This document shows positions 7,921 to 14,579 of a stretch of DNA of 58,405 nt, one piece after another. Each line of letters opens with the position of its first letter. The first letter of the stretch is position 1. The notes under the pieces are model-generated. The model worked only from the letters and a program-made list of their open reading frames with translations, was not told the origin of the DNA and did not search any database. Source of the DNA: Acidimicrobiia bacterium. GTDB lineage: Bacteria; Actinomycetota; Acidimicrobiia; Spongiisociales; Spongiisociaceae. The position numbers were made by a program, and so were the translations under genes. The DNA lies in the NCBI GenBank assembly GCA_011523395.1, contig WTGW01000138.1:1-58405 (forward strand). Direction: 5' to 3'.

Positions 7921-8847
7921 TCAAGTCCCGTGTCCTGCGGCGATGCGTAAGGAGCGTTCGAGCAGGTGAGGATCGCCGAGTCGCCTGCGTAGTTCTCGCT
8001 CGATACCGCTTATCGGGTACAGGTTCTGGGGCGCCCTCGACTCCTTGTGGGGTTCGCTGGCGAACTGGGGAAGGCAGGCGCTGATGATTTCGGCACGTTC
8101 GACAGCCCCGGCCGCGGTACCCGTCCCCGGGAGTTCGAGCCGGACGATACCCGACATCGGGTGAACCCTTGGGCCGGGAAGGCGCAGGTACCAGGACCAG
8201 CGCCCGCGAGCCTGACCTCCGCTGAGGAAGAAGAGGGGTGTTCGCTGCCCGTCGGCTAGGTCGCCGAGTATCGGCTGTACCGCGTTTGGGAGGTAGACCT
8301 TGTGATGGGTCTTGATGTAGCCGACGCTCTGCGGGTCGTTATATCCGCGCAGGGGGCCGTCGAACACGATGAGATCGCAGGAGACGGCGCGGGCCACGCC
8401 GACCTCGAGTTCGGTGCGGCGTCCGTGAATGGCGAGGTAGGTGGCTTCGGGCGTCGCATTCTGGGCGGGCACGAACTCGTAGGTGGCATGGCGGGTGCCG
8501 ATCGGACCCGCGGTGGACGAGGCGGGAGCGACCAGCGAACGGGCTACCCGAATGCCCTTGGTGATGGCGGTTCCCGACGCGCAGACTGTTGCGCCGGCAG
8601 CCATCGACACGCAGACGGCGGGGGTGGAGATACCGTCCTCGTGTATCCAGATCCGCGCGTCAATCCGCTGGATGCCATCGATGAACGCGATCTCGTCGGG
8701 CTTGCGCGCAGGCACCGGGTCGATCGGCGCCCAATCGTCCAGTTCCCGCTCGACCGTGGCGTCGGCCAGGTCCTCGGCGTCCTCGCTGGATGACACATTG
8801 AGAGAGGACCCGTATTCGGGCGCCCACGACTCGACGCTGAACTCCAT
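7921..8847 (-). CDS. nurA: NurA-type nuclease
   Basis: A 308-residue protein with NurA-fold signatures: an early acidic strand EIAFIDGIQRIDARIW (Asp of IDG), a second metal-site strand DLIVFDGPLRGY, and the downstream VGYIKTHHKVYLP strand with the conserved Lys. NurA proteins are ring-forming 5'-3' exo/endonucleases driven by HerA. The gene is last in a herA-sbcD-sbcC-nurA operon, and its ATG overlaps the sbcC TGA (TGATG), implying translational coupling. Expected role: degrading the 5' strand at DNA ends opened by HerA and Mre11-Rad50-like SbcCD. The fold call rests on motifs and context, as the family diverges quickly. Confidence 0.78.
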   Translation of the reverse strand: MEFSVESWAPEYGSSLNVSSSEDAEDLADATVERELDDWAPIDPVPARKPDEIAFIDGIQRIDARIWIHEDGISTPAVCVSMAAGATVCASGTAITKGIRVARSLVAPASSTAGPIGTRHATYEFVPAQNATPEATYLAIHGRRTELEVGVARAVSCDLIVFDGPLRGYNDPQSVGYIKTHHKVYLPNAVQPILGDLADGQRTPLFFLSGGQARGRWSWYLRLPGPRVHPMSGIVRLELPGTGTAAGAVERAEIISACLPQFASEPHKESRAPQNLYPISGIERELRRRLGDPHLLERSLRIAAGHGT

Positions 8848-12875: not shown

Positions 12876-14579
12876 TCAGGTCAGCCCGTCGAAGGGGTCG
12901 GCAGGTTGATCGCTTCGCCCTCCACTCAGATCAGCCTCCGCCACGCGGGTGGCCCATGCCGGGAACGGGAACTCGAGCAGCACGGGAACGGGGAGGCGGG
13001 GCTGGGCGACAAACATGGAACCGGGCTTCAGGATCGTGGCCCGCTGCCGCTGCACAGCCGGCAGGAACCCGTACTGCTCCCGCCCGGCCTCGGCGGCATC
13101 GAGCCGGCCGACCACCCGGATCGCGGAGTTCGAGACGACCCGCCGTTCCACCTCGCTGGCCGTCTGCTGGGCGCCGATGAGGATCATCCCGAGGCTGCGG
13201 CCCCGCTCCGCCACGTCGAGCAGGATCTCCTTGATCGGGCTCGACGAGTCACGGGGCGCGTACTTGTTCAACTCGTCGAGAACCACGAACTGCAACGGCT
13301 CGGCCGTGCCGGCAGCTTCCTTCGCATCGAACGCCTGCCGGAGCACCACGCCCACCACGAAACGCTTGGCCCGGTCATGGAGCATGTGCAGGTCGACGAC
13401 CGTCACCTGCTGGGAGTCGAGATCGATGGCGTGCGTCTCGGCATCGTCGATGTCGGCCCGTATGAGGTGCGCGACGTGCCGTTCCGCTGAGGAGAGGCGG
13501 CGCACGAACGCGTTGATCGTCCCGGTGTAGATCGATCGCCCGGTCCACTGCGGATCGGCGTCCTCGTCCGGGTCCTCCGGAAGCAGCTTGTCGCAGATGA
13601 TCGTGACCAGCTGGGAGAAGGTACGAGCCGTCCTCCCGTCGATCCGTACGGCGCCGTCCGAGGTGTGGGACTGCCTGGCGTAACGCTGCAGCTGCGCCGT
13701 GACCGACTGCACGACGATGGTGTATTGCTGGCGCTCGTCCTCGGCATCGGCGAACAGGAACGGCAGGAGCCCTTGCTCGCAGAACTGGGAGACGGTCCAG
13801 TACAGGGGCTTGACATCGGCGGTACGAGCACCGGTGGCCGGCGTCGCGTTGGGATCACCCTTGCGCGGCGGGGCCAGCACCCTCATGGACCGGAAGGGGC
13901 CGGCCTCTAGTCCGAGCGCGGCGTAGCGGGCCCGCTCCGTCTCGTCGAGGCGGGTGTTCGCATGGTCGAGGAAGAGCAGGTCCTCGCCCTTCACGTTGAA
14001 GATGAGCCCCTTGGTGTTCGTGGCGGCCGCGCCGAGCACGCCGGAGTTGAACAGCGAGTAGAGCAGGAACGTGGCGTAACTGGTCTTGGTGGCTACGCCG
14101 GAGATTCCGGAGATGTTGACGTGGGCGCCCTTGGTGCCGTCGATGAAGTCGAGGTCCAGCACCACCGGCTGGCCGTCGCGCGTCAGGCCGGCGGGCAACC
14201 TATGCTCGACATCGGTCATGTCGAGCGCCTCGTCGCGTTCCTCGTCGACGGCCTTCCGTACCTCCGCGCCGGGCAGCGGCGGAACGAACGTTTCCGGCAC
14301 GACCCGGGTCACCTGGATCTGAGCGGCCTCCGAGACGTCTGCCGGCAAAACACCATCGGCGATCAGGAACACGTCGGAGTCGAACCGAGCTCCTTCATGA
14401 CGCGCCCGCACCTGCCCGACGATCCCATAGATCGAGACGACTTCGCCGGTCGGCAGGCTCCGGTCGAGAGCGACGATGTCGTCAAGCTGTAGGTGCTGAC
14501 CGCTCGCGACCGCTACCCAGAACTCGAGCGGCGTCGCATCATCGGTGCCGAGCACCCTTCCCACTGTGTGATTCGCCAC
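12876..14579 (-). CDS. herA: HerA-type DNA translocase (DUF87/HAS-barrel ATPase)
   Basis: A 567-residue protein from a GTG start. The first 90 residues form a HAS-barrel (VGRVLGTDDATPLEFWVAV). The ATPase core has a P-loop region GISGVATKTS, Walker B FVVLDELNKYAP and the sensor/arginine-finger stretch GAQQTASEVERRVVSNSAIRVVGRLD, which corresponds to the STQRPSEI block of archaeal HerA. HerA hexamers pump DNA to the NurA nuclease. The usual Gly before the P-loop Lys is Thr here. It is first in the herA-sbcD-sbcC-nurA operon and divergent from the aldo/keto reductase. Confidence 0.87.
   Translation of the reverse strand: MANHTVGRVLGTDDATPLEFWVAVASGQHLQLDDIVALDRSLPTGEVVSIYGIVGQVRARHEGARFDSDVFLIADGVLPADVSEAAQIQVTRVVPETFVPPLPGAEVRKAVDEERDEALDMTDVEHRLPAGLTRDGQPVVLDLDFIDGTKGAHVNISGISGVATKTSYATFLLYSLFNSGVLGAAATNTKGLIFNVKGEDLLFLDHANTRLDETERARYAALGLEAGPFRSMRVLAPPRKGDPNATPATGARTADVKPLYWTVSQFCEQGLLPFLFADAEDERQQYTIVVQSVTAQLQRYARQSHTSDGAVRIDGRTARTFSQLVTIICDKLLPEDPDEDADPQWTGRSIYTGTINAFVRRLSSAERHVAHLIRADIDDAETHAIDLDSQQVTVVDLHMLHDRAKRFVVGVVLRQAFDAKEAAGTAEPLQFVVLDELNKYAPRDSSSPIKEILLDVAERGRSLGMILIGAQQTASEVERRVVSNSAIRVVGRLDAAEAGREQYGFLPAVQRQRATILKPGSMFVAQPRLPVPVLLEFPFPAWATRVAEADLSGGRSDQPADPFDGLT

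Follow-up and report, generated by a model that had tools for sequence, protein, structure and literature searches.

Does the cluster of herA, sbcD, sbcC and nurA in an actinobacterial genome represent an archaeal end-resection operon on foreign ground, a defense system, or a bacterial machine in its own right? We addressed this question in Acidimicrobiia bacterium (assembly GCA_011523395.1, 93% complete, 239 contigs; contig WTGW01000138.1), where the window—i.e., the whole analyzed stretch of 58,405 nucleotides—holds four minus-strand open reading frames (ORFs) at positions 7921–14579 that are transcribed in the order herA-sbcD-sbcC-nurA (Table 1). An original prediction, made from the sequence alone, had described them as an archaeal-style operon and had left repair and defense both open. 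Our analysis suggests that SbcCD and a HerA–NurA pair of the Deinococcus type probably form one bacterial DNA-end-processing machine, encoded in one translationally coupled operon and working beside AdnAB.

The four gene identities and the tight coupling between them are confirmed. A gap of 10 bp separates herA from sbcD, sbcD and sbcC overlap by 4 bp (ATGA) and sbcC and nurA by 1 bp (TGATG), all as originally described, and family models and matches to solved structures bear out each identity. Given this arrangement, the coupled, co-directional ORFs are predicted to form one transcription unit, as in the archaeal operon. Specifically, the window HerA matches Deinococcus radiodurans HerA in the Protein Data Bank (7F6D, 7WRW, 7WRX) at a phmmer E-value of 9e-152, with the homology to 7F6D covering residues 5–556 in two stretches that include the HAS barrel and the ATPase domain, and a profile of 34 HerA relatives scores 666 bits against the same protein. 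HerA seems marginal in a family search because its score against Pfam DUF87 (14.9 bits) lies under the cut-off of 23.2; against the archaeal HerA model of NCBIfam (NF040937, HerA_Thermprot) it reaches 13.8 bits, where the cut-off is 800, and its likeness to the defense-system HerA structure 8xau is weak (13.8 bits, E = 0.15). The NurA assignment, which had rested on motifs, held in the profile search (25.2 bits against PF09376, cut-off 21), as it did against the NurA of 7F6D (phmmer, 4e-22), and a profile of 37 NurA relatives gives 181 bits to D. radiodurans NurA and 88 bits to Thermotoga maritima 1ZUP; no match was found among NCBIfam or PADLOC models. AlphaFold2, run on NurA with an alignment of seven close sequences, returned a mean predicted local distance difference test score of 30.6, and the NurA fold is a prediction from homology to solved NurA. 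SbcD exceeds the cut-off of TIGR00619 (181.7 vs. 77.65 bits, NCBIfam) and finds its best solved match in 6s6v (1.3e-34), while SbcC, two ABC-type ATPase halves with a CxxC zinc hook in between, lies above the Pfam cut-offs for AAA_23, SMC_N and SbcC_Walker_B and under those of the NCBIfam sbcc models.

Residues known to matter for function are kept in both members of the Deinococcus-type pair. In D. radiodurans HerA, mutation of K175 (Walker A), of D487 or E488 (Walker B) or of R495 or R552, which serve translocation, is reported to abolish or impair activity, with K175 and T176 holding ADP and Mg, and the same is reported for D53, K201 and R309 of its NurA partner (PMC9960219). Counted by hand on the alignments, the HerA residues K175, D487, E488, R495 and R552 correspond to K165, D435, E436, R443 and R500 of the window protein, each of them invariant in the 34 HerA rows of our first alignment (A1), and the active-site residues T176 and D220, as placed by the structure, correspond to T166 and D200. 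By the same count the NurA residues become D57, K179 and R271, invariant in the 37 rows of the second alignment (A2); the stretch around D57 is weak in single-sequence phmmer (7.5 bits) and is covered by the NurA profile alignment.

The usual form of Walker A is GxxGxGK[ST]. The longer form seen in the window HerA (Table 1), SGxSG[VI]ATKT, is present in 101 of the 101 rows of the HerA tree described below, and the same letters stand in the alignment of D. radiodurans HerA; a Walker B pattern was matched in 86 of the 101. Three divergent loci of family f30 (L150–L152) carry a related string, TGMSGLSTKT. A full-text search of the accessible literature for the string SGVATKT found no mention of it, and the accessible portion of the D. 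radiodurans paper makes no remark on a long Walker A loop (PMC9960219). Distant HerA proteins (27–29% identity) were observed in four viral contigs (L072–L075) and in the phage records KP836355.1 and MT836743.1; one of the set is annotated as bipolar DNA helicase HerA, and SGLATKT occurs in two of the four viral loci.

Beyond this genome, the genes are kept together in relatives, as the original prediction required. We counted 119 loci from other genomes, leaving out repeats of counted genomes (L001–L012, L017–L022); the f30 loci were kept out of this number and out of the trees, and genomes G109 and G255 were not included. All four genes are co-directional in 95 of the 119 loci, and are therefore found together more often than by chance, in two gene orders: nurA-herA-sbcD-sbcC (order B) in 56 and the window's own herA-sbcD-sbcC-nurA (order A) in 39. 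The 24 partial loci (nurA-herA in 10, sbcD-sbcC-nurA in eight, nurA in three, nurA-herA-sbcD in two, sbcC-nurA in one) often stand at contig ends, and among the eight sbcD-sbcC-nurA loci, at least four (G017, G023, G037, G043) have herA 6–7 kb off on the same contig. The f30 loci hold a much diverged nurA-herA-sbcD-sbcC set, in L152 with a gap, that may represent a third branch.

Joint presence is equally clear when genomes are compared. Among 59 relatives from the window's taxonomic order (Spongiisociales), NurA occurs in 50, strong HerA (E < 1e-80) in 50 and SbcD in 48; all three are present in 48, none in eight and some in three, the last being incomplete assemblies (completeness 77–79%). 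Where assemblies are at least 90% complete (n = 43), 37 genomes have NurA, HerA and SbcD and six have none of them. At E ≤ 0.001, SbcD was absent from every relative in this taxonomic order that lacks NurA, so that here SbcCD goes with the operon.

Nor is the gene set the actinobacterial rarity that the original prediction took it to be: a profile search of a phylum sample found NurA in 84 of 396 genomes (ten of them matching weakly, all in family f30), nearly always adjoining HerA and SbcCD. SbcD itself occurs in 249 of the 396, for the most part outside the operon. By hand comparison, 72 of the 74 NurA genomes other than these ten have SbcD, and in the other two (G191 and G311) the operon is cut by a contig end; in G126 and G266, herA-sbcD lies at a contig end and NurA was not found. 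Named carriers include a plasmid of Streptomyces sp. BB1-1-1 and Nonomuraea gerenzanensis (both order A), Sphaerospermopsis kisseleviana (order B) and Nostoc sp. UHCC 0870 (nurA-herA at the end of the record).

The two gene orders allow the history of the operon to be followed. In quick trees of HerA (101 rows), SbcD (103) and NurA (112)—the latter two built without a mixture model, and none holding archaeal or Deinococcus sequences—the order A loci fall on one side of a HerA branch with support 98, which requires one order change, as does the SbcD tree, and in the NurA tree, with two rows unlabeled, the three labels can be explained by two changes, which is the minimum. Each tree is consistent with a single gene-order change. 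Family labels on the HerA tree change 33 times (minimum 28), whereas shuffled labels change 80.6 times on average, which indicates mostly vertical inheritance with some transfers; such close adherence to family lines is more in keeping with a housekeeping gene than with one that moves freely. Order A prevails in the window's genus, and its nearest locus (L099) belongs to another family of the class (f16), while order B occurs in one member of the genus (G009) and in four other genomes of the window's family (G011–G014). Loci of both orders adjoin the same glucose/sorbosone dehydrogenase gene, which lies convergent and 515 bp past nurA in the window and often about 50–170 bp upstream of nurA in order B loci of families f1, f6 and f8, and this shared neighbor suggests that the operon was replaced in place. 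The flank of aldo-keto reductase and PurL genes was not seen within the stretch past the order B operons, and exchange in place is accordingly something we infer.

An absence of adnAB, which had been hinted at, did not hold up. The window genome has two adjacent ORFs with UvrD and PDDEXK_1 domains, i.e., an AdnA/AdnB-like pair, and matches to PF12705 (PDDEXK_1), a family that alone does not identify AdnAB, occur in all 59 relatives of the taxonomic order (one weaker match each in G031 and G037). Outside it, 19 of 20 operon carriers have such a match, the exception being G218, as do 14 of a further 16 genomes from families f28 and f43, some of which lack the operon. In G108, G153 and G281, no ORF of AdnA or AdnB length gave a strong PDDEXK_1 match; these three carriers and G218 (f28/f43) may be without AdnAB and rely on the operon as their main pathway. 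The operon as a replacement for AdnAB is rejected for the window genome and as a rule, since an AdnAB-like pair coexists with it.

How might such a machine operate? The NurA–HerA pair of D. radiodurans is described as cutting the 5′ strand of the DNA as it translocates (PMC9960219). Co-precipitation in Sulfolobus brings down Rad50, Mre11 and HerA together, but not NurA (PMC2288612). In the proposed mechanism, SbcCD, the Mre11–Rad50 homolog, would bind to a DNA end that is broken or blocked and open it; this end would then thread into the HerA hexamer, which would pump duplex DNA into a NurA dimer, and the dimer would cut mainly the 5′ strand, leaving a 3′ tail for RecA. From the D. radiodurans biochemistry we infer that the 5′ resection by HerA–NurA would be coupled to translocation (PMC9960219), and by analogy with Sulfolobus, SbcCD and HerA may be physically coupled (PMC2288612). 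In this lineage, the set could serve as a second or accessory pathway alongside AdnAB. What the analysis observed is the identity of the genes, their coupling, the retention of catalytic residues, the conservation of the four as one unit and the presence of an AdnAB-like pair in the same genome. A stronger version is that, within this taxonomic order, SbcCD has become indispensable to one resection machine of four proteins, SbcCD–HerA–NurA, that runs beside AdnAB; the machine would be retained or lost whole and would have been swapped in place for a diverged version, and its HerA would run on a Walker A loop that is both conserved and lengthened, SGxSG[VI]ATKT; we advance this version tentatively, as the bolder and rather doubtful of the two.

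Several observations weigh against a single machine dedicated to end processing. The genes are not closely linked everywhere: a distance of more than 300 bp separates herA from sbcD in 17 of 97 neighboring pairs, and in family f4 (L032, 3363–5819; related L034) genes for an AlkZ-like DNA glycosylase, a low-molecular-weight phosphatase and a fructosamine kinase stand between the two. In G405, nurA is on a different contig from herA-sbcD-sbcC, and in the stretches fetched from G097, G199, G237 and G334, SbcCD stands without HerA or NurA. The operon is dispensable, as nine of the 59 relatives in the taxonomic order are without NurA, and since the genes adjoin, one deletion would remove all of them, which makes their joint loss weaker as proof of joint function. 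With an AdnAB-like pair present, resection in this genome need not rest on the operon alone. No clear SOS-type box was found in 102 upstream stretches: against expectations from mononucleotide shuffles, GAACN4GTTC with at most one mismatch occurs in 12 (6.1 expected) and exactly in one (0.15), and the longer CGAACN4GTTCG in four (0.55). A search of the upstream stretches for shared palindromes gave nothing interpretable. The acidic residues by which D. radiodurans HerA holds NurA (D78, E80 and D81) are described as conserved in Deinococcus and poorly aligned in other bacteria (PMC9960219), and are therefore not defining for the whole family; in the window they correspond to D69, F71 and L72, of which the first is kept, so that the HerA–NurA contact may differ in detail. 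Finally, a D. radiodurans double knock-out is reported to be about 10-fold more resistant to ultraviolet light and mitomycin C (PMC9960219), and a repair role is thus not settled even there.

Three other explanations bear on the same evidence. The operon could be an anti-phage or anti-plasmid system that degrades incoming linear DNA, in the manner of the HerA systems whose partner is DUF4297 or SIR2. HerA does pair with nucleases in proven defense systems (PMC11291478), and weak matches to the PADLOC HerA and mads models (at most 36 bits), plasmid copies, distant HerA in the four viral contigs and two phage records, antitoxin genes adjoining nurA in the window's genus and the apparent replacement of one divergent operon version by another within that single genus all point the same way. 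The Streptomyces sp. BB1-1-1 copy, moreover, lies near ImmA/IrrE, DUF2397, helicase-associated and restriction endonuclease genes. Yet nearly every relative has one copy of the operon, the HerA, NurA and SbcD trees are near-vertical, the neighbors in the window are of the housekeeping kind (glucose/sorbosone dehydrogenase, purine genes), and the four genes include neither a NurA recognized by PADLOC nor a known effector of the SIR2 or DUF4297 type; we consider defense unlikely. A recent acquisition of an archaeal operon would account for the shared gene set, which is the part of the archaeal-style description that stands, and the archaeal order given by Constantinesco et al. in 2004 reportedly equals order A. 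An archaeal origin is not supported, and we find it very hard to credit: among solved structures HerA and NurA best match the D. radiodurans pair, the archaeal HerA model scores low, and members of the gene family occur in many taxonomic families of the phylum and have long diverged. The nearest solved relatives being of D. radiodurans type, the operon holds a bacterial HerA–NurA coupled to SbcCD.

It is also conceivable that two separate systems are merely co-transcribed, with SbcCD cleaving hairpins or blocked ends and HerA–NurA serving another task. Elsewhere SbcCD functions on its own, it is present without HerA–NurA in several genomes, D. radiodurans HerA–NurA acts without an operon partner (PMC9960219), and the glycosylase and other genes between herA and sbcD in some families are easily accommodated. 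Against this stand the joint presence or absence of the genes in complete relatives, coupling that is conserved across families, trees that agree on gene order and the Sulfolobus co-precipitation of Rad50–Mre11 with HerA (PMC2288612). We judge it improbable that the two halves are unrelated, and the single SbcCD–HerA–NurA machine remains our preferred reading.

Around the operon, the dehydrogenase and transporter listed in Table 1 recur as flanks in many relatives. The antitoxin-domain ORF scores 44.9 bits (cut-off 29.8), and no toxin partner was found for it. A similar ORF occupies this position in loci L023–L029, and L017 also has a helix-turn-helix gene and a weak VapB-like ORF there.

Table 1. 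Features of the window discussed in the text (bp, base pairs; aa, amino acids).
Feature	Position	Strand	Remarks
herA	12876–14579	-	567 aa, GTG start; first gene of the operon; hexameric DNA translocase, D. radiodurans type
HerA Walker A, SGISGVATKT	14082–14111	-	residues 157–166 (K165, T166); one residue longer than usual, T before K
sbcD	11708–12865	-	385 aa, TTG start; Mre11-type phosphoesterase
SbcD motifs DWH, GDLFD, GNHD, TTHA, GHLH	within 11708–12865	-	all intact
sbcC	8847–11711	-	954 aa, ATG start; Rad50-type ATPase
SbcC Walker A GPTGSGKS, LSGGE, FLDEG	within 8847–11711	-	residues 32, 856 and 891; sequence motifs
SbcC zinc hook, CPLC	10329–10340	-	residues 458–461; from sequence
nurA	7921–8847	-	308 aa, ATG start; NurA nuclease
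Phd/YefM antitoxin-domain ORF	7627–7872	-	begins 48 bp past the nurA end
Glucose/sorbosone dehydrogenase	6077–7405	+	operon flank here and in many relatives, both gene orders
Atg22-like major facilitator superfamily transporter	4660–6345	-	operon flank here and in many relatives, both gene orders

Bacterial NurA–HerA has been said to occur in few bacteria, e.g., in the Deinococcus-Thermus phylum (PMC9960219). New here are the actinobacterial spread, the finding that SbcD in the window's taxonomic order occurs only with the operon, and the invariant, unusual HerA Walker A; already known are the gene set (archaea), the clustering with SbcCD (Oceanithermus) and the HerA–NurA type (Deinococcus). 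None of the full-text literature matches listed concerned an actinobacterial HerA–NurA–SbcCD operon, and as subscription papers lay outside that search, an earlier mention is possible. With Streptomyces and Nonomuraea among the carriers, the sharing of end processing between Mre11–Rad50 and HerA–NurA becomes testable in a mesophilic bacterium rather than in hyperthermophilic archaea, and such carriers also open to testing the puzzle of the more resistant D. radiodurans knock-out.

Set beside known systems, the operon combines features that are otherwise found apart. It shares with D. radiodurans NurA–HerA (7F6D, 7WRW, 7WRX) the HerA Walker A, Walker B and translocation arginines and the catalytic D, K and R of NurA; unlike that pair, the window's is coupled to SbcCD, has AdnAB-like proteins encoded in the same genome and departs at two of the three acidic residues in the HerA interface. 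The anti-phage systems DUF4297–HerA and SIR2–HerA, as described (PMC11291478; PMC12977600), have in common with it a HerA-type motor and a partner nuclease, but the partners here are NurA and SbcCD and the HerA similarity is weak. In Oceanithermus profundus, a member of the Deinococcota, hepA is reported with sbcD and sbcC downstream, so that a cluster of nurA-type, HerA-type and SbcCD genes is already in print (PMC5448004), a likeness drawn from the published description and not from sequence. The archaeal herA-mre11-rad50-nurA operon of Sulfolobus and Thermococcus (PMC2288612; PMC12977600) is built from the same four gene families, whereas the HerA and NurA sequences of the window belong to the bacterial branch.

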